Shown in pieces: positions 20,001 to 43,650 of a stretch of 64,000 nucleotides of DNA (position 1 is its first letter; each line of letters begins with the position of its first letter). A program made the translations under genes and the position numbers. The stretch is from Neisseria arctica (GTDB taxonomy: Bacteria > Pseudomonadota > Gammaproteobacteria > Burkholderiales > Neisseriaceae). The notes under the pieces were generated by a model. That model was not told the DNA's origin and made no database searches. It saw nothing but the letters and a program-made list of their open reading frames with translations. The stretch spans positions 744,001 through 808,000 of the forward strand of contig NZ_CP091510.1 in NCBI RefSeq assembly GCF_022870905.1, in the 5' to 3' direction.

Positions 20001-20584
20001 GCCAAACGTTGCAAATGCTCGCGGGTATCTTTCAGACGGCCTTCTGTTTCTTTGCGCCGCTCTTTATATTTAGATACGCCTGCCGCCTCCTCTATATATG
20101 CACGTAACTCTTCGGGGCGTGCTTCGATAATCCGGGAAATCATGCCTTGTTCGATAACGGCATAACCACGCGCGCCCACACCCGTTCCCAAGAAAAGGTC
20201 GGTGATATCTCGGCGGCGGACAACTTGATTATTGATAAAGTAGGTGGATTCTCCTTGTCGGGTCAGTTGGCGTTTGATACTGACTTCAGCATATTGCCCC
20301 CATGGTCCTTGTAGAGAGTGGTCTGCATTATTGAAAACAAGCTCTACAGAAGCGCGTGGAGCGGGGCGGCGGGTCGCCGCACCATTAAAAATCACATCCT
20401 GCATGCTTTCACCGCGTAATTGCTTGGCGGAAGCCTCTCCCAGTACCCAGCGAACTGCATCGATTACGTTGGATTTTCCGCAGCCGTTTGGGCCTATTAC
20501 TGCAACGAGTTGTCCCGGTACGTGAATGGTTGTGGGATCGGTAAAAGATTTAAACCCTGCAAGTTTAATATGGGTAAGGCGCAT
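17093..20584 (-). CDS. smc: chromosome segregation protein SMC
   Basis: SMC is the structural ATPase of condensin, which compacts and aligns chromosome arms. The N-terminal head has Walker A GPNGCGKSN (about 32-40). Long Gln/Glu/Ala-rich coiled coils run from about 170 to 500 and 660 to 980 around a hinge near 500-660. The C-terminal head carries the signature LLSGGEKALTAMSLVFA and Walker B FCLLDEVDAPLDD. The length (1163 aa) is normal. Three DUS cores fall inside the coding region (about 18334, 19159 and 20032). The ScpA and ScpB genes are not in the window. Confidence 0.96.
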   Translation of the reverse strand: MRLTHIKLAGFKSFTDPTTIHVPGQLVAVIGPNGCGKSNVIDAVRWVLGEASAKQLRGESMQDVIFNGAATRRPAPRASVELVFNNADHSLQGPWGQYAEVSIKRQLTRQGESTYFINNQVVRRRDITDLFLGTGVGARGYAVIEQGMISRIIEARPEELRAYIEEAAGVSKYKERRKETEGRLKDTREHLQRLADLQNELARQVEKLEKQAETAQRYKTLTQQLSKQQDLLDYLQWQQALANADKATAQHRQFQQQQDEMAAQIQALTEQIHALQATEQAQQIQVQDISNRRSVLREQIARLEEQIRHQQTLHQRIERDKAAAQAQLQRIHQQQQEIHAEIEEHDIQIENKQVELAELAMQVAEHEERLPELEEAQSNLNNAFQAQQDEYNRIKRELALKQQQLTHAQATVKQHAQRRQRLDEENKALNLPAGADTEAAQEQAALLQSQQEHYEEQLLAAETQLETLQNDFQTASANHQTIQQQHITLTAQQQALTQLLAQDNANSDFWQHTDAVEMPQLWQHIQAPAQWQHALSAFLAERLHARAVPVTFHPPTPLPNGRAAWIDNKLSGGLKKSLPAQALLNQIHAQGAFQAALHHWLDGVLCAPDLDYALAHQGDLQGKQLWLTPEGHQVDRAGVLLYAEAGQENLISRKARLDELNTELATLTPKLAAAEQQRNQSHSALLAAEQHYKNLQQQQKQHNQQYQAAQTRAAELLARTNQGQIRREHITRELLQLEEEQLILEQTSDGLEDDIATLTEACSELETQQQTTSGSRQQQQNQLKQAQLALLEANRRYGLVEVAVHKLQQQKQSREQQLAQLEQQTLDWQERQSELALAYEAEQQNDEQHIKLQSLGEEVQTLDEAYLGIQDQLSATQKQGRQQYTQQQALSAKLPQLQAATQTALLQQQEALLNAKRFHENLAVRNADLSELENLADASGNLNALSEDIGNLAQKIQALGAVNLAALEELEEARERDGYYRSQSEDVQSAIDLLEEAISQIDNETKARFKETFDAVNEKVQTFFPTLFGGGEAKLHMIGDDLLSAGVSIMARPPGKKNSTIHLLSGGEKALTAMSLVFALFSLNPAPFCLLDEVDAPLDDANTGRFCNLVKEMSAQTQFLYISHNRLTMEMAEQLIGVTMQEKGVSRIVAVDIQQALSMAEPA

Positions 20585-20729
20585 GTCGGTGAAGTTTGCT
20601 TTGAAAAAAGACTGCTATTTTAGCTGAAAATTATTATTAAGTGATGGATTTTTCGGATAGAAAATACTTAGATATATAGTGCAAGACGGGTTTAAATTTC
20701 AAGTGAAATATTTGATCGGTCGCCGGATA

Positions 20730-20747
20730 AATTTGAATATTCAAATT
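20730..20747. promoter_or_regulatory. 18-bp perfect palindrome, candidate operator
   Basis: AATTTGAATATTCAAATT is identical to its reverse complement. It stands about 290 bases upstream of the OmpA-lipoprotein gene and 145 bases upstream of smc. A dimeric regulator site is possible; no regulator is known. Confidence 0.4.
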
Positions 20748-20917
20748 ATATCCTAGGCTGCCTACTCTAAATTACTTGTGTGAAGCGGATTGTTGCAGAA
20801 AAGTAACGGGTGAAACTACCACTTGTCAGGTTAACTAACCGTATAGGTATGCTAAAGAAATGCGAGATAAAATGCCTTTATCATCTTAAACATAGTAAAG
20901 GGGTTATTATCTATTGT

Positions 20918-20950
20918 CTGCCGATTTGCTGGGGATTTTGTTTCGGCAGA
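20918..20950 (+). promoter_or_regulatory. Leader hairpin upstream of the OmpA-lipoprotein gene
   Basis: TCTGCCGA and TCGGCAGA can form an 8-bp stem around a 17-base loop in what is probably the 5' leader. No T tract follows, so it is not an obvious terminator. Its role is unknown. Confidence 0.35.
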
Positions 20951-21039
20951 TATATCGGGGATGTTTCTGTCTTAAGTTAACCTCTTAAAATTAAAACAAT
21001 TTATTAAAATTTATATTCAAATAAAATTAGGAGCCTGTC

Positions 21040-21942
21040 ATGATGTTTTCTCGTCGCCATTTAGTTTGGGTTTTGTTGCCGTTTTTCGCTACAGGTTGCG
21101 TCACTCACTCTAAAGTGACTTGGGTTGATACTAAAGACATTGTATACAGCACTTCAGTTCCAGAGGGGCGCTCTTCAGTAGTGTTTTACCGATCTAGTGA
21201 CGCAATTGACGGACCAACGGTAAATATTTATGTAAATGGTGAATATCTAGGTTCGCTGCAGCCCAATGCATACCGTCAGGAAACAGTATGTGCGCAAAAT
21301 CAACGTTTCCATGCGGATTTTACAAATCAAGATCGCGCATATCGTAAAAAGGCCGACTTAGGGGATTACTATAATCTTCCTGAGGCGGCTGTATCTTTCT
21401 TTAAAATTACCAACAATAATGGACAACCGGCTTTGGAACCCGTAACTCCGGAGCAGGCTGAGGCTGATTTAAAAGGTGTTCAGCAGCAAAACCATACTTT
21501 GTCACGCGTATCAAAAGCCAGCCAATGTGCCGAAGTATTGAAAAAATACAGCTTGCAGGCTTCGGCTTTATTTAAATTTGATCGTTCCGAATATAAAGAT
21601 ATGTTGCCTCAGGGTAAACGTGAGGTAGCTGCAGTTTCTGATGATATCAAGCAAAATCTCAATCGGGTCAGCAGCATTTCCGTAATCGGTCATACCGATC
21701 CGGAAGGTAGTGATATTTATAACAATAAATTGTCGACTGCTCGTGCTGCTACTGTGAAAAAAGCGTTGATGGAAAGTGGCCTCCAAGGTGGAATGATTGT
21801 TGCCGAGGGACGCGGTAAAAAAGAGTTGTTGGTAACTAACTGCCGTGCTCAACATCCGAAAAATGCCAAAGCTCGCCAAGAGTGTGATCAGCCTAATCGT
21901 AGGGTAGAGATTCTGCTTCATGGTGAAAAAGCTGCAAAATAA
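21040..21942 (+). CDS. OmpA-family lipoprotein preceding the giant adhesin
   Basis: This is a predicted lipoprotein of 300 aa. The signal peptide ends in ATGC (Cys20). A domain of about 130 residues that I do not recognise follows, and then an OmpA-like peptidoglycan-binding domain (about 175-296) with ISVIGHTDPEGSDIYN and a C-terminal CDQPNRRVEILL. It probably anchors in the outer membrane and contacts peptidoglycan. AGGAG is five bases upstream. The stop is 55 bases before the adhesin ATG with no terminator between, so the two are likely co-transcribed and may work together in surface display. That partnership is inferred. Confidence 0.85.
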   Translation: MMFSRRHLVWVLLPFFATGCVTHSKVTWVDTKDIVYSTSVPEGRSSVVFYRSSDAIDGPTVNIYVNGEYLGSLQPNAYRQETVCAQNQRFHADFTNQDRAYRKKADLGDYYNLPEAAVSFFKITNNNGQPALEPVTPEQAEADLKGVQQQNHTLSRVSKASQCAEVLKKYSLQASALFKFDRSEYKDMLPQGKREVAAVSDDIKQNLNRVSSISVIGHTDPEGSDIYNNKLSTARAATVKKALMESGLQGGMIVAEGRGKKELLVTNCRAQHPKNAKARQECDQPNRRVEILLHGEKAAK

Positions 21943-21997
21943 ATTAGTAAAAATAAATACATATATCAAATAAAATAGAAAAGATAAGGTGAATCAA

Positions 21998-24900
21998 ATG
22001 GCGAAAAACATTACGCTCAATATTAATAATGCTAAAGAAGTAGTGGAAAGCATCAAAATTCAGACTGCCAGTGGTGAGGCTGTCCGTATTGCGGCGCAAC
22101 CGGGTGTGAATTATCAATTTATTGATGACCTAACTCAGTTCGGCCCTGAAAATATCATGATTAAGCGTGTTGGGGACGACTTGTTTGTAGCGGTTGAAGG
22201 TACAGATATTGCTAATCCCGATTTAGTGATTGAGGGATACTACTCGGGTAAAACCAGTGCGTATAAAGATAGCTTGCTGATCGGGCAGCATGAGAACGGT
22301 AATATTTATCCCTATATCCCTGAAAGTACCCTTCCGGAGGATGCGGTAACCTTGCTGGCTGAAGAAGTGCAAGCCGGTCAAGCTTTGGGTGGAGAAGTGA
22401 TCCAAGCTTTATGGATGCCGAATCCATTATGGTTATTGGCTTTGATGCCGTTGGCCGCATTGGGAGCGCAAGGGGGTAATAATAACGATACTCCAGTTCC
22501 AGAGCTTCCTGCTCCTGAAATCACAGTTGATGCGCCAGACCTGACTAATGATAATACCCCGACTATTAGTGGTAAGACTGATGCTGAGCCGGGACAAACA
22601 GTTTCTGTATTGATTACAGACGCGGAAGGCAAGCAGCAAACAGTTACTACTACAGTTAAAGATGACGGCACCTATGAAGTGGATGTAAAAGAGCCTTTGG
22701 CTGATGGAGAATATACTGCTGAAGCAACTGTGAATAATAAGGCTGGTAAAACAGCTACTGCTACTGATCCTGGAACGGTAGATACAATGGCGCCAAGTGC
22801 TCCTGTTGTAACTATTATCGAAGATAAAAATAATGATGGCTATATCAGTTCTGATGAATTAGATGGTGATATCAATGTAACTGTAACGTTGCCACGAGAT
22901 GCCGTAGCGGGAGACACGCTGAACGTCGACACCAACGGCGACGGCAAACCCGACTTCAGCCATGTACTGACCGCAGCCGACATCGTTAAAGGCAGCGTAG
23001 ACGTACCGGGCGTTAAGAATCCCGGCGAAGGTAAGACCCTGACCGTAGAGGCCTGGGTGACCGATCCTGCCGGCAACAGCGGCGAGAAAGGCCGCGACAG
23101 CGCCGAAATCGACACCCAAGCACCGGGTGCGCCGACGGTTGAAATCAAAGACGGCGGCGACGGCTATGTGAACGGCGAAGAAGCCAAAGGCGGCGTAGAA
23201 GTATTGATCACCCCGCCGAAAGACGCGAAGCCGGGCGACGTATTGGAAGTTGACTATGACGGCGACGGCAAACCGGACTTTACCAAAGAGCTGACGCCGG
23301 AAGACATCGCGGGCGGGGTAACCGTAACCGTACCGGAAGACAAGATTCCGACGGACGGGCCGCTGGAAGTAAGCGCGACCGTAACCGACGCGGCTGGCAA
23401 TACCGGCCCCAAAGGCAGCGACAGCACCCAAGCCGATACTGCCGTACCGAACAACGGCGTAGCACCGGTAGTGGAAATCACCGAAGATGCCAACAACGAC
23501 GGCTTCATCAACCGCGAAGAGCTGGATGGTGCGGTAGACGTTAAAGTCAGCTTCGACGGAGACAAAGTATCCGTAGGCGACGTTGTGAAAGTGACTTCGG
23601 GCGGCGTTACCAAAGAAGTGATCGTTACGGCCGAAGACAAAGCCAAAGGCTACGTGACCACCGAATTCGACGCACCGGCACACGGCAGCGAAATGGTTGT
23701 GACCGCAGTGATCGCAGACAAAGCCGGCAACGTTTCCGAGGAAGGCCGCGACAGCGCCAAATTGGATCTGAGCGATTTGGTTTCAGACGGCGTCAGCATC
23801 GTGATTGACGAAGATGCCAATAACGACGGCTTCATCAGCAAAGAAGAGCTGCAAGGTACCATCGACGTTACCGTTACTCTGCCCAAACAGGCAGTGGCGG
23901 GTGATCTGCTGGTCGTGACCGCCACGGGCAATACCCCGAAAGAAATCACGCTGACCCAGGCCGATATCGATGCGGGCAAAGTCAGCACCAGCTTCACCGC
24001 ACCGGGCAACGGCACCGAGTTTGTCGCCACAGCGCAAGTGAGCGATGCCGCAGGCAATAAGAGCAATGTTGCCGAAGACAAAGCGACGTTGAAACTGGAC
24101 GAGCCTGGCGCACCGGTAGTGACCATCGTTGAAGACAAAAACAACGACGGCTACATCAACGCGGACGAATTGGACGGCGACATCAACGTATCGGTAGAGT
24201 TGCCGAAAGGAGCGGTTGCGGGTGATACCCTGACCGTCACCGACAACGCCGGTAACGAACAAAAAGTCGTACTGACGCCCGAACAAATTGCCGCAGGCAA
24301 AGTAGAAGTTACCCTGCCGGCACCGCAAGACGGCGGTAAGATCGAAGTAAGCGCGACCGTAACCGACGTAGCCGGTAACACCGGTCCGGCGGGTACCGAT
24401 TCCGCCACCGTAGACACTACCGTATACAAAGGTCTGGTGATCGAAATTACCGAAGATGCCAACAACGACGGCTACATCAACGCGGCCGAGCTGAAAGGCA
24501 ACGACATCGACGTACGCGTTACCCTGCCGGAAGGCGCGGCAGCCGGCGATACCCTGACGGTAAGCGGCAGCGGCAATACCGACAAAGTGATCACGCTGAC
24601 ACCGGAGCAAGTAAAAGCCGGTTACGTGGACGTGAAATTCAATCCGACGGGTGACAACACCGACTTCGTAGCGACCGCCTCTATCCGTGATGTGGCAGGC
24701 AACAGCGCCGGTCCGGTTAACGACAGCGCCCGTCTGCAACTGAGCGCGCCGGGCAAACCGATCGTGACCATTACCGAAGACGCGAACAACGACGGCTTCA
24801 TTAACGGTAAAGAACTGAACGGCGACATCGGCGTCAACGTAGCGCTGCCGGCGACAGCCGTAGCGGGAGACACGCTGAACGTCGACACCAACGGCGACGG

Positions 24901-27900
24901 CAAACCCGACTTCAGCCATGTACTGACCGCAGCCGACATCGTTAAAGGCAGCGTAGACGTACCGGGCGTTAAGAATCCCGGCGAAGGTAAGACCCTGACC
25001 GTAGAGGCCTGGGTGACCGATCCTGCCGGCAACAGCGGCGAGAAAGGCCGCGACAGCGCCGAGATCGACACCCAAGCACCGGGTGCGCCGACGGTTGAAA
25101 TCAAAGACGGCGGCGACGGCTATGTGAACGGCGAAGAAGCCAAAGGCGGCGTAGAAGTATTGATCACCCCGCCGAAAGACGCGAAGCCGGGCGACGTATT
25201 GGAAGTTGACTATGACGGCGACGGCAAACCGGACTTTACCAAAGAGCTGACGCCGGAAGACATCGCGGGCGGTGTTACCGTAACCGTACCGGAAGACAAG
25301 ATTCCGACGGACGGCCCGCTGGAAGTAAGCGCGACCGTAACCGACGCGGCTGGCAATACCGGCCCCAAAGGCAGCGACAGCACCCAAGCCGATACTGCCG
25401 TACCGAACAACGGCGTAGCACCGGTAGTGGAAATCACCGAAGATGCCAACAACGACGGCTTCATCAACCGCGAAGAGCTGGATGGTGCGGTAGATGTTAA
25501 AGTCAGCTTCGAAGGCGACAAAGTATCCGTAGGCGACATTGTTAAAGTGACCTCAGGCGGCGTTACCAAAGAAGTGATCGTTACCGCGGAAGACAAAGCC
25601 AAAGGCTACGTGACCACCGAATTCGACGCACCGGCACACGGCAGCGAAATGGTTGTGACCGCAGTGATTGCCGACAAAGCCGGCAACGTTTCCGAAGAAG
25701 GCCGCGACAGCGCTAAACTGGATCTGAGCGATTTGGTTTCAGACGGCGTCAGCATCGTGATTGACGAAGATGCCAATAACGACGGCTTCATCAGCAAAGA
25801 AGAGCTGCAAGGTACCATCGACGTTACCGTTACTCTGCCCAAACAGGCAGTGGCGGGTGATCTGCTGGTCGTGACCGCCACGGGCAATACCCCGAAAGAA
25901 ATCACGCTGACCCAGGCCGATATCGATGCGGGCAAAGTCAGCACCAGCTTCACCGCACCGGGCAACGGCACCGAGTTTGTCGCCACAGCGCAAGTCAGCG
26001 ATGCCGCAGGCAATAAGAGCAATGTTGCCGAAGACAAAGCGATGTTGAAACTGGACGAGCCTGGCGCACCGGTAGTCACCATCGTTGAAGACAAAAACAA
26101 CGACGGCTACATCAACGCGGACGAATTGGACGGCGACATCAACGTATCGGTAGAGTTGCCGAAAGGAGCGGTTGCGGGTGATACCCTGACCGTCACCGAC
26201 AACGCCGGTAACGAACAAAAAGTCGTACTGACGCCCGAACAAATTGCCGCAGGCAAAGTAGAAGTTACCCTGCCGGCACCGCAAGACGGCGGTAAGATCG
26301 AAGTAAGCGCGACCGTAACCGACGTAGCCGGTAACACCGGTCCGGCGGGTACCGATTCCGCCACCGTAGACACTACCGTATACAAAGGTCTGGTGATCGA
26401 AATTACCGAAGATGCCAACAACGACGGCTACATCAACGCGGCCGAGCTGAAAGGCAACGACATCGACGTACGCGTTACCCTGCCGGAAGGCGCGGCAGCC
26501 GGCGATACCCTGACGGTAAGCGGCAGCGGCAATACCGACAAAGTGATCACGCTGACACCGGAGCAAGTAAAAGCCGGTTACGTGGACGTGAAATTCAATC
26601 CGACGGGTGACAACACCGACTTCGTAGCGACCGCCTCTATCCGTGATGTGGCAGGCAACAGCGCCGGTCCGGTTAACGACAGCGCCCGTCTGCAACTGAG
26701 CGCGCCGGGCAAACCGATCGTGACCATTACCGAAGACGCGAACAACGACGGCTTCATTAACGGTAAAGAACTGAACGGCGACATCGGCGTCAACGTAGCG
26801 CTGCCGGCGACAGCCGTAGCGGGAGACACGCTGAACGTCGACACCAACGGCGACGGCACACCCGACTTCAGCCACGTACTGACGGAAGCCGACATCGTTA
26901 AAGGCAGCGTAGACGTACCGGGCGTTAAGAATCCCGGCGAAGGTAAGACCCTGACCGTAGAGGCCTGGGTGACCGATCCTGCCGGCAACAGCGGCGAGAA
27001 AGGCCGCGACAGCGCCGAGATCGACACCCAAGCACCGGGTGCGCCGACGGTTGAAATCAAAGACGGCGGCGACGGCTATGTGAACGGCGAAGAAGCCAAA
27101 GGCGGCGTAGAAGTATTGATCACCCCGCCGAAAGACGCGAAGCCGGGCGACGTATTGGAAGTTGACTATGACGGCGACGGCAAACCGGACTTTACCAAAG
27201 AGCTGACGCCGGAAGACATCGCGGGCGGTGTTACCGTAACCGTACCGGAAGACAAGATTCCGACGGACGGCCCGCTGGAAGTAAGCGCGACCGTAACCGA
27301 CGCGGCTGGCAATACCGGCCCCAAAGGCAGCGACAGCACCCAAGCCGATACTGCCGTACCGAACAACGGCGTAGCACCGGTAGTGGAAATCACCGAAGAT
27401 GCCAACAACGACGGCTTCATCAACCGCGAAGAGCTGGATGGTGCGGTAGACGTTAAAGTCAGCTTCGACGGAGACAAAGTATCCGTAGGCGACGTTGTGA
27501 AAGTGACTTCGGGCGGCGTTACCAAAGAAGTGATCGTTACGGCCGAAGACAAAGCCAAAGGCTACGTGACCACCGAATTCGACGCACCGGCACACGGCAG
27601 CGAAATGGTTGTGACCGCAGTGATCGCAGACAAAGCCGGCAACGTTTCCGAGGAAGGCCGCGACAGCGCCAAATTGGATCTGAGCGATTTGGTTTCAGAC
27701 GGCGTCAGCATCGTGATTGACGAAGATGCCAATAACGACGGCTTCATCAGCAAAGAAGAGCTGCAAGGTACCATCGACGTTACCGTTACTCTGCCCAAAC
27801 AGGCAGTGGCGGGTGATCTGCTGGTCGTGACCGCCACGGGCAATACCCCGAAAGAAATCACGCTGACCCAGGCCGATATCGATGCGGGCAAAGTCAGCAC

Positions 27901-30900
27901 CAGCTTCACCGCACCGGGCAACGGCACCGAGTTTGTCGCCACAGCGCAAGTCAGCGATGCCGCAGGCAATAAGAGCAATGTTGCCGAAGACAAAGCGATG
28001 TTGAAACTGGACGAGCCTGGCGCACCGGTAGTCACCATCGTTGAAGACAAAAACAACGACGGCTACATCAACGCGGACGAATTGGACGGTGACATCAACG
28101 TATCGGTAGAGTTGCCGAAAGATGCGGCGGCAGGCGATACCCTGACCGTAACCGACAACGCCGGCAACGAACAAAAAGTCGTACTGACGCCCGAACAAAT
28201 TGCGGCAGGCAAAGTAGAAGTTACCCTGCCGGCACCGCAAGACGGCGGCAAGATCGAAGTAAGCGCGACCGTAACCGACGTAGCCGGTAACACCGGTCCG
28301 GCGGGTACCGATTCCGCCACCGTAGACACTACCGTATACAAAGGTCTGGTGATCGAAATTACCGAAGATGCCAACAACGACGGCTATATCAACGCGGCCG
28401 AGCTGAAAGGCAACGACATCGACGTACGCATCACCCTGCCGGAAGGCGCGGCAGCCGGCGATACCCTGACGGTAAGCGGCAGCGGCAATACCGACAAAGT
28501 GATCACGCTGACACCGGAGCAAGTAAAAGCTGGTTACGTAGACGTGAAATTCAATCCGACGGGTGACAACACCGACTTCGTAGCGACCGCCTCTATCCGT
28601 GATGCGGCAGGCAACAGCGCCGGTCCGGTTAACGACAGCGCCCGTCTGCAACTGAGCGCGCCGGGCAAACCGATCGTGACCATTACCGAAGACGCGAACA
28701 ACGACGGCTTCATTAACGGTAAAGAACTGAACGGCGACATCGGCGTCAACGTAGCGCTGCCGGCGACAGCCGTAGCGGGAGACACGCTGAACGTCGACAC
28801 CAACGGCGACGGCACACCCGACTTCAGCCACGTACTGACGGAAGCCGACATCGTTAAAGGCAGCGTAGACGTACCGGGCGTTAAGAATCCCGGCGAAGGT
28901 AAGACCCTGACCGTAGAGGCCTGGGTGACCGATCCTGCCGGCAACAGCGGCGAGAAAGGCCGCGACAGCGCCGAAATCGACACCCAAGCACCGGGTGCGC
29001 CGACGGTTGAAATCAAAGACGGCGGCGACGGCTATGTGAACGGCGAAGAAGCCAAAGGCGGCGTAGAAGTATTGATCACCCCGCCGAAAGACGCGAAGCC
29101 GGGCGACGTATTGGAAGTTGACTATGACGGCGACGGCAAACCGGACTTTACCAAAGAGCTGACGCCGGAAGACATCGCGGGCGGGGTAACCGTAACCGTA
29201 CCGGAAGACAAGATTCCGACGGATGGCAAACTGGTGGTTGAAGCGACCGTAACCGACGCGGCCGGCAACACCGGCCCCAAAGGCAGCGACAGCACCCAAG
29301 CCGATACTGCCGTACCGAACAACGGCGTAGCACCGGTAGTGGAAATCACCGAAGATGCCAATAACGACGGCTTCATCAACCGCGAAGAGCTGGATGGTGC
29401 GGTAGACGTTAAAGTCAGCTTCGACGGAGACAAAGTATCCGTAGGCGACGTTGTGAAAGTGACTTCGGGCGGCGTTACCAAAGAAGTGATCGTTACGGCC
29501 GAAGACAAAGCCAAAGGCTACGTGACCACCGAATTCGACGCACCGGCACACGGCAGCGAAATGGTTGTGACCGCAGTGATCGCAGACAAAGCCGGCAACG
29601 TTTCCGAGGAAGGCCGCGACAGCGCCAAATTGGATCTGAGCGATTTGGTTTCAGACGGCGTCAGCATCGTGATTGACGAAGATGCCAATAACGACGGCTT
29701 CATCAGCAAAGAAGAGCTGCAAGGTACCATCGACGTTACCGTTACTCTGCCCAAACAGGCAGTGGCGGGTGATCTGCTGGTCGTGACCGCCACGGGCAAT
29801 ACCCCGAAAGAAATCACGCTGACCCAGGCCGATATCGATGCGGGCAAAGTCAGCACCAGCTTCACCGCACCGGGCAACGGCACCGAGTTTGTCGCCACAG
29901 CGCAAGTGAGCGATGCCGCAGGCAATAAGAGCAATGTTGCCGAAGACAAAGCGACGTTGAAACTGGACGAGCCTGGCGCACCGGTAGTGACCATCGTTGA
30001 AGACAAAAACAACGACGGCTACATCAACGCGGACGAATTGGACGGCGACATCAACGTATCGGTAGAGTTGCCGAAAGGAGCGGTTGCGGGTGATACCCTG
30101 ACCGTCACCGACAACGCCGGTAACGAACAAAAAGTCGTACTGACGCCCGAACAAATTGCCGCAGGCAAAGTAGAAGTTACCCTGCCGGCACCGCAAGACG
30201 GCGGTAAGATCGAAGTAAGCGCGACCGTAACCGACGTAGCCGGTAACACCGGTCCGGCGGGTACCGATTCCGCCACCGTAGACACTACCGTATACAAAGG
30301 TCTGGTGATCGAAATTACCGAAGATGCCAACAACGACGGCTACATCAACGCGGCCGAGCTGAAAGGCAACGACATCGACGTACGCGTTACCCTGCCGGAA
30401 GGCGCGGCAGCCGGCGATACCCTGACGGTAAGCGGCAGCGGCAATACCGACAAAGTGATCACGCTGACACCGGAGCAAGTAAAAGCCGGTTACGTGGACG
30501 TGAAATTCAATCCGACGGGTGACAACACCGACTTCGTAGCGACCGCCTCTATCCGTGATGTGGCAGGCAACAGCGCCGGTCCGGTTAACGACAGCGCCCG
30601 TCTGCAACTGAGCGCGCCGGGCAAACCGATCGTGACCATTACCGAAGACGCGAACAACGACGGCTTCATTAACGGTAAAGAACTGAACGGCGACATCGGC
30701 GTCAACGTAGCGCTGCCGGCGACAGCCGTAGCGGGAGACACGCTGAACGTCGACACCAACGGCGACGGCAAACCCGACTTCAGCCATGTACTGACCGCAG
30801 CCGACATCGTTAAAGGCAGCGTAGACGTACCGGGCGTTAAGAATCCCGGCGAAGGTAAGACCCTGACCGTAGAGGCCTGGGTGACCGATCCTGCCGGCAA

Positions 30901-33900
30901 CAGCGGCGAGAAAGGCCGCGACAGCGCCGAGATCGACACCCAAGCACCGGGTGCGCCGACGGTTGAAATCAAAGACGGCGGCGACGGCTATGTGAACGGC
31001 GAAGAAGCCAAAGGCGGCGTAGAAGTATTGATCACCCCGCCGAAAGACGCGAAGCCGGGCGACGTATTGGAAGTTGACTATGACGGCGACGGCAAACCGG
31101 ACTTTACCAAAGAGCTGACGCCGGAAGACATCGCGGGCGGTGTTACCGTAACCGTACCGGAAGACAAGATTCCGACGGACGGCCCGCTGGAAGTAAGCGC
31201 GACCGTAACCGACGCGGCTGGCAATACCGGCCCCAAAGGCAGCGACAGCACCCAAGCCGATACTGCCGTACCGAACAACGGCGTAGCACCGGTAGTGGAA
31301 ATCACCGAAGATGCCAACAACGACGGCTTCATCAACCGCGAAGAGCTGGATGGTGCGGTAGATGTTAAAGTCAGCTTCGAAGGCGACAAAGTATCCGTAG
31401 GCGACATTGTTAAAGTGACCTCAGGCGGCGTTACCAAAGAAGTGATCGTTACCGCGGAAGACAAAGCCAAAGGCTACGTGACCACCGAATTCGACGCACC
31501 GGCACACGGCAGCGAAATGGTTGTGACCGCAGTGATTGCCGACAAAGCCGGCAACGTTTCCGAAGAAGGCCGCGACAGCGCTAAACTGGATCTGAGCGAT
31601 TTGGTTTCAGACGGCGTCAGCATCGTGATTGACGAAGATGCCAATAACGACGGCTTCATCAGCAAAGAAGAGCTGCAAGGCAGCATCGACGTTACCGTTA
31701 CTCTGCCCAAACAGGCAGTGGCGGGTGATCTGCTGGTCGTGACCGCCACGGGCAATACCCCGAAAGAAATCACGCTGACCCAGGCCGATATCGATGCGGG
31801 CAAAGTCAGCACCAGCTTCACCGCACCGGGCAACGGCACCGAGTTTGTCGCCACAGCGCAAGTCAGCGATGCCGCAGGCAATAAGAGCAATGTTGCCGAA
31901 GACAAAGCGATGTTGAAACTGGACGAGCCTGGCGCACCGGTAGTCACCATCGTTGAAGACAAAAACAACGACGGCTACATCAACGCGGACGAATTGGACG
32001 GCGACATCAACGTATCGGTAGAGTTGCCGAAAGGAGCGGTTGCGGGTGATACCCTGACCGTCACCGACAACGCCGGTAACGAACAAAAAGTCGTACTGAC
32101 GCCCGAACAAATTGCCGCAGGCAAAGTAGAAGTTACCCTGCCGGCACCGCAAGACGGCGGTAAGATCGAAGTAAGCGCGACCGTAACCGACGTAGCCGGT
32201 AACACCGGTCCGGCGGGTACCGATTCCGCCACCGTAGACACTACCGTATACAAAGGTCTGGTGATCGAAATTACCGAAGATGCCAACAACGACGGCTACA
32301 TCAACGCGGCCGAGCTGAAAGGCAACGACATCGACGTACGCGTTACCCTGCCGGAAGGCGCGGCAGCCGGCGATACCCTGACGGTAAGCGGCAGCGGCAA
32401 TACCGACAAAGTGATCACGCTGACACCGGAGCAAGTAAAAGCCGGTTACGTGGACGTGAAATTCAATCCGACGGGTGACAACACCGACTTCGTAGCGACC
32501 GCCTCTATCCGTGATGCGGCAGGCAACAGCGCCGGTCCGGTTAACGACAGCGCCCGTCTGCAACTGAGCGCGCCGGGCAAACCGATCGTGACCATTACCG
32601 AAGACGCGAACAACGACGGCTTCATTAACGGTAAAGAACTGAACGGCGACATCGGCGTCAACGTAGCGCTGCCGGCGACAGCCGTAGCGGGAGACACGCT
32701 GAACGTCGACACCAACGGCGACGGCACACCCGACTTCAGCCACGTACTGACGGAAGCCGACATCGTTAAAGGCAGCGTAGACGTACCGGGCGTTAAGAAT
32801 CCCGGCGAAGGTAAGACCCTGACCGTAGAGGCCTGGGTGACCGATCCTGCCGGCAACAGCGGCGAGAAAGGCCGCGACAGCGCCGAGATCGACACCCAAG
32901 CACCGGGTGCGCCGACGGTTGAAATCAAAGACGGCGGCGACGGCTATGTGAACGGCGAAGAAGCCAAAGGCGGCGTAGAAGTATTGATCACCCCGCCGAA
33001 AGACGCGAAGCCGGGCGACGTATTGGAAGTTGACTATGACGGCGACGGCAAACCGGACTTTACCAAAGAGCTGACGCCGGAAGACATCGCGGGCGGTGTT
33101 ACCGTAACCGTACCGGAAGACAAGATTCCGACGGACGGCCCGCTGGAAGTAAGCGCGACCGTAACCGACGCGGCTGGCAATACCGGCCCCAAAGGCAGCG
33201 ACAGCACCCAAGCCGATACTGCCGTACCGAACAACGGCGTAGCACCGGTAGTGGAAATCACCGAAGATGCCAACAACGACGGCTTCATCAACCGCGAAGA
33301 GCTGGATGGTGCGGTAGACGTTAAAGTCAGCTTCGACGGAGACAAAGTATCCGTAGGCGACGTTGTGAAAGTGACTTCGGGCGGCGTTACCAAAGAAGTG
33401 ATCGTTACGGCCGAAGACAAAGCCAAAGGCTACGTGACCACCGAATTCGACGCACCGGCACACGGCAGCGAAATGGTTGTGACCGCAGTGATCGCAGACA
33501 AAGCCGGCAACGTTTCCGAGGAAGGCCGCGACAGCGCCAAATTGGATCTGAGCGATTTGGTTTCAGACGGCGTCAGCATCGTGATTGACGAAGATGCCAA
33601 TAACGACGGCTTCATCAGCAAAGAAGAGCTGCAAGGTACCATCGACGTTACCGTTACTCTGCCCAAACAGGCAGTGGCGGGTGATCTGCTGGTCGTGACC
33701 GCCACGGGCAATACCCCGAAAGAAATCACGCTGACCCAGGCCGATATCGATGCGGGCAAAGTCAGCACCAGCTTCACCGCACCGGGCAACGGCACCGAGT
33801 TTGTCGCCACAGCGCAAGTCAGCGATGCCGCAGGCAATAAGAGCAATGTTGCCGAAGACAAAGCGATGTTGAAACTGGACGAGCCTGGCGCACCGGTAGT

Positions 33901-36900
33901 CACCATCGTTGAAGACAAAAACAACGACGGCTACATCAACGCGGACGAATTGGACGGTGACATCAACGTATCGGTAGAGTTGCCGAAAGATGCGGCGGCA
34001 GGCGATACCCTGACCGTAACCGACAACGCCGGCAACGAACAAAAAGTCGTACTGACGCCCGAACAAATTGCCGCAGGCAAAGTAGAAGTTACCCTGCCGG
34101 CACCGCAAGACGGCGGTAAGATCGAAGTAAGCGCGACCGTAACCGACGTAGCCGGTAACACCGGTCCGGCGGGTACCGATTCCGCCACCGTAGACACTAC
34201 CGTATACAAAGGTCTGGTGATCGAAATTACCGAAGATGCCAACAACGACGGCTACATCAACGCGGCCGAGCTGAAAGGCAACGACATCGACGTACGCGTT
34301 ACCCTGCCGGAAGGCGCGGCAGCCGGCGATACCCTGACGGTAAGCGGCAGCGGCAATACCGACAAAGTGATCACGCTGACACCGGAGCAAGTAAAAGCCG
34401 GTTACGTGGACGTGAAATTCAATCCGACGGGTGACAACACCGACTTCGTAGCGACCGCCTCTATCCGTGATGCGGCAGGCAACAGCGCCGGTCCGGTTAA
34501 CGACAGCGCCCGTCTGCAACTGAGCGCGCCGGGCAAACCGATCGTGACCATTACCGAAGACGCGAACAACGACGGCTTCATTAACGGTAAAGAACTGAAC
34601 GGCGACATCGGCGTCAACGTAGCGCTGCCGGCGACAGCCGTAGCGGGAGACACGCTGAACGTCGACACCAACGGCGACGGCAAACCCGACTTCAGCCATG
34701 TACTGACCGCAGCCGACATCGTTAAAGGCAGCGTAGACGTACCGGGCGTTAAGAATCCCGGCGAAGGTAAGACCCTGACCGTAGAGGCCTGGGTGACCGA
34801 TCCTGCCGGCAACAGCGGCGAGAAAGGCCGCGACAGCGCCGAGATCGACACCCAAGCACCGGGTGCGCCGACGGTTGAAATCAAAGACGGCGGCGACGGC
34901 TATGTGAACGGCGAAGAAGCCAAAGGCGGCGTAGAAGTATTGATCACCCCGCCGAAAGACGCGAAGCCGGGCGACGTATTGGAAGTTGACTATGACGGCG
35001 ACGGCAAACCGGACTTTACCAAAGAGCTGACGCCGGAAGACATCGCGGGCGGTGTTACCGTAACCGTACCGGAAGACAAGATTCCGACGGACGGCCCGCT
35101 GGAAGTAAGCGCGACCGTAACCGATGCGGCCGGCAATACCGGCCCCAAAGGCAGCGACAGTGTTAATGTTGATACCAAAGCACCTACTATAGACATTAAC
35201 CATATTGCCGGTGAGAACCAAGGTGCGACGGATGCCGACGGTTATGCTGTAATCAATGCGGCGGACAAACAAAACGGCTTCAACGTATCGGGTGTAACCG
35301 ATGCGGAGAACGGTCAGACCGTAGTTGTGAAAGTATTGGATGGCAACACAGAGGTGGCCAGCTATACCACTACCGTGACTAACGGTACATGGAGTGCTGC
35401 CGTACCTGCGGGAGCTGCTTGGGTTGCCGACGGTAAAGCGTATAGCTTCAGCGCCAGCGTTACCGATAAAGCAGGTAATACAGCTACTGACGTAGACGTA
35501 ACCAAAGCTACCGACTTGACTGCTCCGAATGCCAATACGACCAAACTGGTTATCAGCAGTGTGGCAGGTGATGACGTATTGAACGGCCAAGAATCTGCTG
35601 CTACTGAAGTTCCGGTGGTAGGCAAAGTAAGCGGTGAATTTAAAGCCGGAGACGTCGTAACCGTAGTGGTTAACGGCAACAGTTACACAAGCAAAGTAGA
35701 TGCACAAGGTAACTTCACCGTTAAAGTCAAAGGTAGCGATTTGGCGGCCGATGCGGATAAGGTAGTAGATGCCAGCATCACGACTACAGACGCGGCAGGC
35801 AATACCGGTACGATAACTGCTACCCGTCCGTACACCGTGGATGGAAAAGTTTCTATCGACATCAACCATATTGCCGGTGAGAACCAAGGTGCGACGGATG
35901 CCGACGGCTATGCTGTAATCAATGCGGCGGACAAACAAAACGGCTTCAACGTATCGGGTGTAACCGATGCGGAGAACGGTCAGACCGTAGTTGTGAAAGT
36001 ATTGGATGGCAACACAGAGGTGGCCAGCTATACCACTACCGTGACTAACGGTACATGGAGTGCTGCCGTACCTGCGGGAGCTGCTTGGGTTACCGACGGT
36101 AGAGCGTATAGCTTCAGCGCCAGCGTTACCGATAAAGCAGGTAATACAGCTACTGACGTAGACGTAACCAAAGCTACCGACTTGACTGCTCCGAATGCCA
36201 ATACGACCAAACTGGTTATCAGCAGTGTGGCAGGTGATGACGTATTGAACGGCCAAGAATCTGCTGCTACTGAAGTTCCGGTGGTAGGCAAAGTAAGCGG
36301 TGAATTTAAAGCCGGAGACGTCGTAACCGTAGTGGTTAACGGCAACAGTTACACAAGCAAAGTAGATGCACAAGGTAACTTCACCGTTAAAGTCAAAGGT
36401 AGCGATTTGGCGGCCGATGCGGATAAGGTAGTAGATGCCGGCATCACGACTACAGACGCGGCAGGCAATACCGGTACGATAACTGCTACCCGTCCGTACA
36501 CCGTGGATGGAAAAGTTTCTATCGACATCAACCACATTGCCGGTGATAACCAAGGTGCGAAGGATGCCGACGGCTATGCTGTAATCAATGCGGCGGACAA
36601 ACAAAACGGCTTCAACGTATCGGGTGTAACCGATGCGGAGAACGGTCAGACCGTAGTTGTGAAAGTATTGGATGGCAACACAGAGGTGGCCAGCTATACC
36701 ACTACCGTGACTAACGGTACATGGAGTGCTGCCGTACCTGCGGGAGCTGCTTGGGTTACCGACGGTAAAGCGTATAGCTTCAGCGCCAGTGTTACCGATA
36801 AAGCAGGTAATACAGCTACTGATGTAGACGTAACCAAAGCGACTGATTTGACTGCTCCGAATATTACTGTGGATGCTCCTGATAACAGTAATGACAATAC

Positions 36901-39223
36901 ACCGACTATTACAGGTACGACGAATGCACCTGCCGGTTCGGTAGTAACTATTTCTGTTACAGACAGCAATAGCCAAGTACAAACCTTCACGGCAGTAGTG
37001 CAGCAAGATGGTACATACCGTGCAGATGTTCCGAATCCGCTTGCGGACGGTAATTATCTTGCAACAGTTACCGTAAAAGATCCGGCCGGTAATGAAGCAA
37101 GGGCACGAGATTTAGGTAGTATTGATACTGTTAATCCGACTGTATCTGTGAATGACGCCAATCTTGCAGTGAAAGAGGCTTCAGGTGCTAGCGTAAGCGG
37201 TATTATTAAAGTTAGCGATAGTAATGGTGTAGCTTCCGTGACCGTTGGTGGCAAAGATGTAACTTCTGCTACTACTTCTACGCCTGTAGTTATTACCACT
37301 GCTAAAGGTACCTTGACGATTACCGAATACAATGCTTCTACCGGTGTGGTTTCTTACACTTATAAAGAAGCTAATAAAGCACAAGATCACAGCCAGGGAG
37401 ATTTATCAGTACGTGACAGCTTCATCGTAACCGTACGTGATAAAGCGGGCAATATGGTGATGGACAGCTTGGATGTTGTCATTACAGATACTGCTCCGGT
37501 TGCTGCGAATGATACAAAAGCAATCAATGAAGGAGACATTAGCGTAAGTGGCAATTTGTTGGCTAACGATACAATTGGTGCAGATGCGCCAGTCACTGTG
37601 AGCATCGCCAAATCTGCCGGTAATTATGGTGTACTGACCGTAGATGCTTCTGGTAACTATAAGTATGACTTGAACTCTGCGAATCCTGCTGTTAAAGCAT
37701 TGAAAGACGGCGAGACTCTGAAGGAAACCTTCAGCTACACAGTAACCGATGCAGACGGCGACAGTAGTACTGCCCAGCTGACTATTACGATTAATGGTGC
37801 CAGCGATAAATCTGTTATTGGCACTAACAAGCCTGATGTTATTACAGGTGGCAATGGAGATGATGTACTGGTCGGCGATACAGGTGGTTCTGAAATCATC
37901 ATTACCCCGGGGGCTAATTACAATGTAATGATCCTCTTGGATAATTCGAACAGTATGAACTTCTTTAAAGCGGCTAATGGTTTGACTTATGGAGAGATGG
38001 CTAAGAAATCATTGTTGAAGTTGGCAAATGATTTGGCCGGGCATGATGGTAAGATTAACGTTGCATTCATGACTTTCAACAAAGTATCAAATATGCAGTT
38101 GAGCATAAAAGACTTGAATGGCAGTAATGTTGATCAATTAATCAATAAGATTAATAGCTTAGCATTTACGGATGCAACCAACTATGATGATGCTTTCCGT
38201 GATGCGACAACTTGGCTAAATAGCGTTTCATCAAATGGCTATAAGAATGTTACTTATTTCTTAACTGATGGTGAACCGACTACTTATGGTACAACTGGTT
38301 GGATTAATGGTGCTTATGTAACACAAACATCAATGGATGCCGCCTTGTCTAGCTTTAAAGGGCTGAGTGCGATTTCAGATGTACATGCCATCGGCTTCTC
38401 TAAAGGTGTTGGTAACAATACACTGAAATATTTCGATAATACTTCCGATAGTGATTTGGTGTATAACCAAGAATGGCAAAATTATTTTGCACCGTCAGGT
38501 TACAACACTGTTAAATTGAGCGGTTATACCGGTGAGTCTGCGATTGTAAGTAACCCTGATGAACTGGATGCTGCATTGCAACACGGTACTACTCAAATTC
38601 ATTTGGATAGTGTTTCAAATGATGTAATCAGTGGTGGTGCAGGTGATGATATTCTGTTTGGTGATACAATCAACACGGATCATCTGTCTTGGGTGAACAC
38701 TAGCACAGGTGTGGCGTACACTTCTGATAACCATGACGGTCAAAGCATTAATGCGCTGAAAGAGTACATTAAATGGACCGATAACAGTGGTGCAGATGCT
38801 ACCAGCGATCAAATCAACAGTTATGTCCGCAGCAACTGGCAGGATCTGTTGGATGGTCGTAGTGATGGCGGAGACGATACGCTCAACGGTGGCAGCGGTA
38901 ATGACATTCTGTTTGGTGGAGCCGGAAACGATACGCTGACTGGCGGTGAAGGTGCTGATCAGTTTGTATTCCTGGCCAACAGCAACAGTGGTCAAGATAT
39001 CATTACTGATTTTGAGGCCGGTGTGGATAAAGTAGTGTTTGCCGACTTGGTAAGCCCTGCTCAGTTGAAAGGTGCTGTTTGGAATGATGCAACCCATACC
39101 TTAAGCTTTACCGGTGTGGGCAGTGATGGCCAAACTTACAACAACAGTATCACTTTCAAAGGAATGGCTTCGGGCCAAACCCTAAACATTATTTTGGACA
39201 ACCATGTTGAATTTATCGGTTAA
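21998..39223 (+). CDS. giant repetitive Ig-like/RTX adhesin (BapA-like), type I secreted
   Basis: This is a predicted surface adhesin of 5741 aa. I choose the ATG at 21998 because AAGG (21986-21989) precedes it properly; a GTG at 21989 overlaps that site. In order: a BapA-like N-terminal module with a hydrophobic stretch (about 140-156); one Ig-like domain (174-264); 6.27 tandem units of 652 residues (about 268-4388), each with six Ig-like modules opening with EF-hand-type loops such as [12 protein letters not shown]; 222-residue repeats (about 4399-4952); another Ig-like domain; a VCBS-like region (about 5165-5273); an RTX patch; a von Willebrand A domain with MIDAS DNSNS (D5315); further RTX nonapeptides; and a T1SS-type C-terminus. 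There is no Sec signal. Likely roles are adhesion or biofilm formation, with calcium stiffening the rod. No exporter genes lie nearby. Confidence 0.88.
22901..35160 (+). repeat. Tandem array of 1956-bp units (6.27 copies)
   Basis: Near-identical units recur every 1956 bp inside the adhesin gene. Units in phase with the Pro-Gly-Lys-Pro module start at about 22793 (first part divergent), 24749, 26705, 28661, 30617, 32573 and 34529 (partial). Identity to the next copy begins at 22901 and is lost after 35160. Each unit encodes six modules of about 108 residues, and units differ at only a few positions. Confidence 0.95.
35192..36855 (+). repeat. Second tandem array, 666-bp period (2.5 copies)
   Basis: A pair of domains (one starting [10 protein letters not shown], the other [14 protein letters not shown]) repeats at 35192, 35858 and 36524. 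The third copy keeps only the first domain. Copies are almost identical in DNA. Confidence 0.93.
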
Positions 39224-39280: not shown

Positions 39281-39558
39281 TTTATTTAGATAAGGCTGTC
39301 TGAACATAAGGTTGCTTGGAAGATAAAAGATATAGGTGATATGGTTACCATGTTTTGAGTGTTTCAAATAATGTTTTGAATAAATGGTAAACTTTGTTTG
39401 CAGAAAAAAATTTTATGGGGTGAAAATATATTCAAGCCAAAAAATTTCTAAGATAGAAGGGGACTAATAATTTTTCTAAATAGGTTTACTTTCTAACTTT
39501 ACCTTTACAATACAGTCGGATTAAGATGCCGTCTGAAAAGATTAGAGAAACAAATAAT
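39281..39558. other. AT-rich spacer before folA
   Basis: There is no gene. A TACAAT (about 39506-39511) may be a folA -10 box. An AT-DUS occupies 39526-39537. Confidence 0.45.
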
Positions 39559-43288: not shown

Positions 43289-43650
43289 TGGTGGAGGCGG
43301 GGGGAATTGAACCCCCGTCCGAAAGCCCTCTACAAAGCGTTCTACATACTTAGTCGAATCTATTTGAATCTTGTTTCCATTCCGCCGACCGACAGGCTGT
43401 TTGGAAACCAGTTACCTTAAATCTTATTTCCTGCCAAGTAACCCGACAGAAAACCAGCCAATGTAAATGACGTTGCCGTAGGTTTTACCCTACACAGCCC
43501 ATCGGCCAACTGTTGCAACGGCAGGCCTTAAGCGGCCAGTGCGTAAGTTTCGTCGTTTGCGACTATTTAATTTCAGTGTTTTACGGGAATCTGAGACCCC
43601 GGTATGCCCGCATCTGCTTCGCAACCCCCGTCGAAACCAAGATCGCCCCC
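43289..43650 (-). ncRNA. ssrA: transfer-messenger RNA (tmRNA)
   Basis: tmRNA rescues stalled ribosomes with SmpB and tags the nascent peptide for proteolysis. The 5' end GGGGGCGATC pairs with the 3' CGCCTCC before an encoded CCA, leaving the G-U wobble at the third pair that alanyl-tRNA synthetase recognises. The T-arm GGGGGTTCAATTCCCCC is clear. The tag frame (43528-43560, minus) reads ANDETYALAA followed by TAA. The length is 362 nt, like E. coli. A TATAAT on the minus strand at 43666-43671 is a likely -10 box. Confidence 0.97.

Follow-up and report, generated by a model that had tools for sequence, protein, structure and literature searches.

A giant RTX adhesin gene of Neisseria arctica whose full 1956-bp repeat units each carry a DNA uptake sequence

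The stretch of Neisseria arctica DNA analysed here (NZ_CP091510.1, positions 744,001–808,000 of the forward strand; 64,000 nucleotides, called the window below, and the basis of all coordinates unless stated otherwise) contains, on the plus strand at 21998..39223, a gene of 5,741 codons from its ATG that its open frame and domains identify as that of a giant type I-secreted RTX adhesin. The gene carries an extender array of 6.27 near-identical units of 1956 bp (22901..35160, plus strand), and an exact DNA uptake sequence (DUS) occurs once in every full unit. On sequence grounds the protein is an RTX adhesin of the type I secretion system (T1SS) whose anchor is Bap-like, and it represents a variant within an established group; what is new here is a three-unit duplication pattern, in which the units pair as 1-4, 2-5 and 3-6, and the exact DUS in each full unit. 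Taking its parts jointly, we consider it probable that this is an adhesin of the Bap/LapA kind that would leave the cell through an unlinked LssB-type type I system and stay attached to the outer membrane through its N-terminal anchor, aided by an OmpA-family lipoprotein. Ca2+ between the Ig-like modules would stiffen its arm, and recombination between near-identical six-module units, which living strains would gain and lose, would set the arm’s length.

The repeat array and the history of its units

The array is real. Over the region 22001–39223 self-identity is 0.76 at a shift of 1956, against 0.24 at shifts of 1955 and 1957, and near-identity starts abruptly at 22901 and fades at about 35,140–35,165, which gives the 6.27 units; the period equals 652 codons, in frame. 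Tandem Repeats Finder left the array unreported because the longest period of that tool is 500. All on the plus strand, the units lie at 22901..24856 (unit 1), 24857..26812 (unit 2), 26813..28768 (unit 3), 28769..30724 (unit 4), 30725..32680 (unit 5) and 32681..34636 (unit 6), followed by a partial unit 7 at 34637..35160. Full units differ pairwise at 3–40 of 1956 positions, with 3 differences between units 5 and 2 and 7 between units 6 and 3, and 57 columns vary over the six full units (62 with the partial unit counted). The frame is open over 21989–39223, and the ATG at 21998 (MAKNI...), which aligns with the starts of relatives, gives 5,741 residues. A sequence-only reading made earlier had proposed an array of this extent, period and unit number with few differing positions per unit, in a 5741-residue protein, and the shift comparison, the unit differences and the relatives’ starts confirm it.

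It is unlikely that the unit number is an assembly artefact, with the array collapsed or expanded. Twelve kilobases of ~98–99.8% identical units are difficult for short reads, but the genome is one contig and 100% complete, and the units have private differences (a tract in unit 4, changes in unit 5) that simple copying by an assembler would not create. The 1956-bp unit is absent elsewhere in this genome, all 2,378,219 bp of which, in its single contig, were searched.

The full units most likely descend from a past duplication of a three-unit block of 5.9 kb, because pairing unit 1 with 4, 2 with 5 and 3 with 6 leaves by far the fewest differences: 28, against 60 for the next best of 15 pairings. 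This pairing fits 29 of the 57 variable columns exactly. Two departures from it make later exchange among units, after the duplication, likely: in the first 200 bases of the unit, unit 4 groups with units 3 and 6, and unit 4 has its private tract at unit positions 456–501. A donor of this tract was sought among the available loci, but the tract's core turned up there only at its own position in the window and in two loci that duplicate this position. The earlier suggestion of homogenisation or copy-number change is therefore borne out by the three-unit pattern and the short private tract.

Of the variable codons, 36 differ only synonymously and 13 with an amino-acid change, set against about 480 synonymous and 1,476 other sites, and these counts suggest that purifying selection acts on the modules. 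The extender has a GC content at third codon positions (GC3) of 0.67, compared with 0.36–0.48 in five neighbouring open reading frames (ORFs), and for this reason we considered whether it had recently come from a foreign source. We dropped this idea since the extenders of relatives are often GC3-rich too and the best of the giant proteins scored are ~55% identical.

Modules, anchor, tail and export

Each unit codes for six Ig-like modules (m1–m6), expected at about 108 residues and found at 104–113 (110, 113, 111, 104, 108 and 106 residues as cut), which are 35–52% identical to one another within a unit. In a profile search, Big_13 and EF-hand models match the unit; the whole protein lacks Cys, contains RTX, von Willebrand factor A (vWA), VCBS/Big and Ig_ice domains, and has 45 DxN/DxDG motifs besides 31 strict EF-hand loops. 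An AlphaFold2 (AF2) model of two modules has a mean pLDDT of 94.8 and a pTM of 0.76. Foldseek places SiiE at the top for this model (E 2.4e-8, 18% identity), and the module profile matches MpAFP RII (4p99, E 2.5e-11). A single-sequence PDB search with the module pair gave nothing at E <= 10, and in VIA-align many FnIII/Ig rows tied with SiiE and MpAFP, so no single family is picked out. Profile, EF-hand loops and AF2 model agree on a tandem Ig-like extender with Ca2+ motifs, as in T1SS RTX adhesins. In solved adhesins of similar kind, the accessible text of PMC7493085 locates Ca2+ in the linkers between modules; the modules here are predicted to bind Ca2+, which would stiffen the rod.

The anchor, a Bap-like prefix (21998..22483, plus strand), consists of a beta domain and then a hydrophobic stretch. 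In its AF2 model residues 1–110 form a block with pLDDT 84–96 and the remainder is low (mean over the whole model 76.8); the model had no PDB structure match at E <= 0.001, and a profile of the N-terminus had no meaningful match among PDB sequences. In an alignment of 14 anchors that excludes the window’s own, four members match Pfam BapA_N PF22783 (best E 7.1e-6) and one matches NF033677 weakly (E 0.1). The OmpA-family gene (21040..21942, plus strand) ends 55 bp 5' of the adhesin ATG and codes for a 300-aa protein whose start looks lipoprotein-like by eye (FATGC) and whose C-terminal part is an OmpA domain (PF00691, E 1.1e-14). This protein is predicted to be an envelope partner of the adhesin, and may help to anchor it. 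A promoter and terminator scan of 20500–22100 gave nothing beyond the level of shuffles.

Beyond the array, a post-array region (approximately 35165..37360, plus strand) holds further Ig-like domains (NF012196 in four stretches, and PF19077), and a VCBS/Big region also lies on this side of the array. The same region is a second, shorter repeat family with a 666-bp period and near-identical stretches, coding for 222-residue Ig-like pairs. The tail has a vWA domain at 37925..38275 (plus strand; PF13519, E 5e-9) and C-terminal RTX nonapeptide repeats of the kind that T1SS RTX adhesins carry, of which the best-scoring stretch is at 38864..38962 (plus strand; PF00353, E 9.5e-16), with the C-terminal region next. 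In the PDB this stretch matches RTX parts of CyaA, proteases and epimerases; a PHROGs search gave no match.

The neighbours of the adhesin gene are the ompA-family gene, smc and DHFR, and no exporter gene adjoins it, whereas exporter genes adjoin bapA in the accessible text of PMC12153261. About 1 Mb away, at own-genome coordinates G000:C1:1775357-1780117, an exporter cluster codes for an LssB-type ABC protein (TIGR03375, 888 bits; cut-off 693), an HlyD-type adaptor (TIGR01843, 315 bits; cut-off 209) and a TolC-like protein that scores below its model cut-off, so the genome has a type I exporter, with ABC and HlyD above the cut-offs. We compared 46 genomes of the genus, this one and 45 others. 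The N-terminal 174 residues of the adhesin occur in 25 of the 46, a count that takes in this genome and one weak match (G031, E 4.6e-4), and an ortholog of the exporter ABC occurs in 35 (best E 0, at least 76% identity). The anchor is found in 25 of the 35 genomes with the ABC ortholog and in none of the 11 without it (hypergeometric P 2.6e-5 with kinship ignored; 5.3e-5 when G031 is left out). Export of the adhesin by the unlinked LssB-type type I system is likely.

The locus in the genus and its wider relatives

The locus was compared at 20 places, in 19 of the other 24 genomes with the anchor and in one genome from another genus. The OmpA-family gene lies directly upstream in all 20 (38–42% identical to the window’s in L103–L105 and 59–69% in the rest), with smc on its far side in 17; the vWA/RTX tail is present at 56–62% identity in 16; L102, one of the four loci without a tail match, stops at a contig edge. 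Adhesins of the same locus, for example those of N. wadsworthii, N. canis and N. chenwenguii, thus share with the window the order smc, ompA-family, adhesin as well as anchor and tail. Unlike the window, they lack any close copy of the unit, and the longest of their open frames is of ~3,600 codons, against 5,741; the window adhesin is the longest open frame among the compared relatives. None of the 45 other genus genomes has a close copy of the unit, five giving fragments at 31–46% identity. In a wider set of 82 other genomes of the family, to which the 45 belong, the top-scoring match, in G065, is at 37% identity. The strongest near-identical periods of the genus relatives, where found, are 279, 564, 762, 843, 852, 858, 1116, 1131 or 1686 bp.

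Some loci depart from this layout. At L091 (G042) the adhesin frame ends at ~1,236 codons and array-like sequence runs on in other frames of the locus, and at L100 (G040) the anchor frame has only ~565 codons; its GC3 is very low and its repeats are of short period, which sets it apart from the extenders of Ig-like modules in relatives. A second set of frames of ~1,040–1,130 codons with a weak anchor match (30–35%) occurs in G002, G010, G011, G020, G027, G044 and G045. Elsewhere in the window, a tmRNA gene lies at 43289–43650 (tag ANDETYALAA); its tag, like the DUS, is in keeping with the genus Neisseria.

Relatives of the unit appear farther afield. Among giant proteins (3,159–10,052 residues; 951 candidates scored, the window’s own protein not among the matches), 34 match the unit, the best of them, a Dechloromonas protein and others, at 53–56% identity. 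P0003 (4,978 residues) repeats m3-m4-m5-m6-m1-m3' three times, at a period of 650 residues, and so matches five of the six modules, and in P0006 (3,484 residues) the series m3-m4-m5-m6-m1 occurs three times, at a period of 539 residues; the modules of these runs are ~48–71% identical to the window’s. Most of the module order is therefore shared rather than unique, and the sequence-only reading, which could match the six-module unit to no described protein, is on this point not supported in the form it was put. Twenty-eight plasmid records also have a match, all below 60% identity.

That reading had also named BapA, LapA and SiiE as parallels, and here domains, the MpAFP RII profile match and the Foldseek match to SiiE support it. 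It stands, then, as to the kind of adhesin and as to homogenisation or copy-number change; it made no mention of the uptake sequence that each full unit carries, nor of the OmpA-family partner, the unlinked exporter or the missing match to LapG. BapA and Bap have an N-terminal prefix, a hydrophobic stretch, tandem Ig-like modules and a C-terminal secretion region. In this general layout the window adhesin resembles Salmonella BapA and Acinetobacter Bap, and it differs from them in an anchor that matches no BapA model, its unlinked exporter, its vWA domain and its one DUS per unit. On an Acinetobacter plasmid, an OmpA-family gene is followed by a gene annotated as BapA prefix-like, the same order as in the window. 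The OmpA domain there is 39% identical to the window’s over 127 residues, and hhalign aligns only 25 columns of the Acinetobacter N-terminus with the window anchor, at 42% probability. SiiE of Salmonella is not known to have such RTX or vWA domains, and its exporter locus is of another kind. The likeness to it is that of a predicted Ca2+-binding Ig-like array and of the top Foldseek match of the module pair; the window differs in having RTX and vWA domains and a different exporter locus, and the match is at 18% identity.

The likeness to LapA and MpAFP includes the predicted Ca2+-linked Ig-like extender, vWA, RTX, the LssB-type exporter and the MpAFP RII profile match, which raises the possibility of a LapA-type adhesin freed by a LapG-like periplasmic protease under cyclic di-GMP control. 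The vWA and RTX tail and the exporter fit such an adhesin. So do the closest extender modules: those of the window are mostly 48–73% identical to those of the giants P0002–P0006, and the N-termini of P0002, P0003, P0004 and P0006 look LapA-like by eye. However, the LapG domain Peptidase_C93 (PF06035) has no match in the N. arctica genome (among 14 control genomes this search matched Caulobacter only), and the window N-terminus is different from that of LapA and MpAFP and falls in a Bap-like set. We therefore set LapG-type release aside, and regard the LapA-type alternative as very improbable.

DNA uptake sequences and a possible exchange of units

The DUS core GCCGTCTGAA occurs exactly once in each of the six full units, always on the minus strand: at 23782..23791 in unit 1, 25738..25747 in unit 2, 27694..27703 in unit 3, 29650..29659 in unit 4, 31606..31615 in unit 5 and 33562..33571 in unit 6. 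On the gene strand it reads T-TCA-GAC-GGC, codes for S-D-G and sits at the m3–m4 boundary as the modules were cut. Apart from these six, no exact DUS lies between the one at 20031 and the one at 39528, a distance that would otherwise be a gap of 19,497 bp; the largest gap in the rest of the window is 2,455 bp. The genome holds 2,013 DUS and 3 copies of the reversed pattern, a strong over-representation. In the array the density is 0.49 per kb (6 in 12.3 kb), compared with 0.30 in the other ORFs of the window (11 in 36.3 kb). Near the start of the gene, the window anchor has a one-mismatch DUS at 22059, where relatives have an exact DUS near codon 24 (F-Q-T-A); the latter is found in ten of the twelve genes L086–L097 (L086–L092, L094, L096 and L097).

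Several related adhesin genes also have DUS in their extenders, counted without those near codon 24 and near the vWA domain: 12 in L088, 11 in L092, 8 in L087, 4 in L097, 2 in L090 and one each in L094 and L091, the last on the opposite strand to the others. They lie at several different protein sites, L087, L088, L090 and L094 sharing one site type. In the species that use the wadDUS dialect (L098–L101) the dialect is present in the flanks, with none in the adhesin gene. In L105 (G065, the other genus; an adhesin of ~3,360 codons) there is no standard DUS but 19 sim/kingDUS, most of which read LPE, GSL or SGS. They occupy 17 distinct sites, against 0.40 expected from synonymous shuffling. In a set of 21 genes, 14 of the S-D-G sites are written as DUS, where 0.29 would be expected from codon use, although these are not 14 independent events since some sites are common to related genes.

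We infer that natural transformation could act on the array: DUS-bearing unit fragments would be taken up and recombined, and units would so be duplicated, swapped and homogenised. The competing explanation, to which we give about even chances and which rivals this uptake part alone, is that the array grew and was homogenised by intrachromosomal unequal crossing-over and gene conversion only, with the DUS as a passenger. In favour of this explanation, the DUS is spread throughout the genome, other ORFs of the window included, and in L105 the gene (19 in 10.1 kb) is no richer in sim/kingDUS than its flanks (15 in 5.0 kb). A passenger fits less well with extender DUS at differing protein sites in different species, with the excess of S-D-G sites coded as DUS, and with a gene full of its own dialect and free of the standard one. 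These points speak for selection or drive that favours DUS in genes of this kind, rather than for a part of the DUS in unit exchange as such.

Other points weigh against our combined account, the first two of them also in favour of the passenger. Unequal crossing-over within the chromosome suffices for the three-unit duplication, with no need of DNA uptake, and the repeat arrays of six relatives (L086, L089, L093, L095, L096 and L103) have no internal DUS. The array’s DUS density is below the genome average of 0.85 per kb; taken as a whole the array is thus not rich in DUS, and general enrichment, which we had considered, was dropped; under synonymous shuffling of the window gene, its single distinct DUS is only modestly unlikely (P 0.034). 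The unit number is known from one strain, with one genome per species. On the side of anchoring and export, the window anchor has no match to the curated BapA prefix models PF22783 and NF033677, the exporter is unlinked, the anchor–exporter statistic ignores relatedness, and incomplete genomes (68–85%) make up 3 of the 11 that lack the ABC ortholog.

A more specific and more doubtful proposal, which we offer tentatively, is that the repeat unit is a self-tagged exchange cassette with its own in-frame DUS at a module boundary. A unit-sized fragment from a lysed neighbour would then be a preferred substrate for uptake and would meet a region rich in homology, and transformation could lengthen, shorten, homogenise or replace the arm while anchor and tail stay constant. 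If this is true, the extender DUS at other sites in other Neisseria and the gene filled with sim/kingDUS would represent a solution reached repeatedly.

Uptake sequences inside genes are reported to show an orientation bias (PMC2346458), and the word adhesin is absent from the accessible text of that paper. Among the papers listed, our literature search found no title or opening of an abstract on DUS within adhesin tandem repeats, and among work on giant or T1SS adhesins of Neisseria none on the present locus; both are weak negatives, as subscription papers were mostly outside its reach.

Giant T1SS adhesins are well known, but in our judgement how their arms change in length or swap modules is largely open. 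Here one locus combines a conserved anchor, tail and OmpA-family partner with an extender that has no close copy in the genus among the genomes searched, and the extender repeats of N. arctica and of some other species carry the signal preferred by their own uptake machinery. Natural transformation would thereby be tied to how a surface rod evolves, a link that lends itself to direct test. If the DUS is a mere passenger, the locus remains a clean case of concerted evolution, with a three-unit pattern that can still be read.

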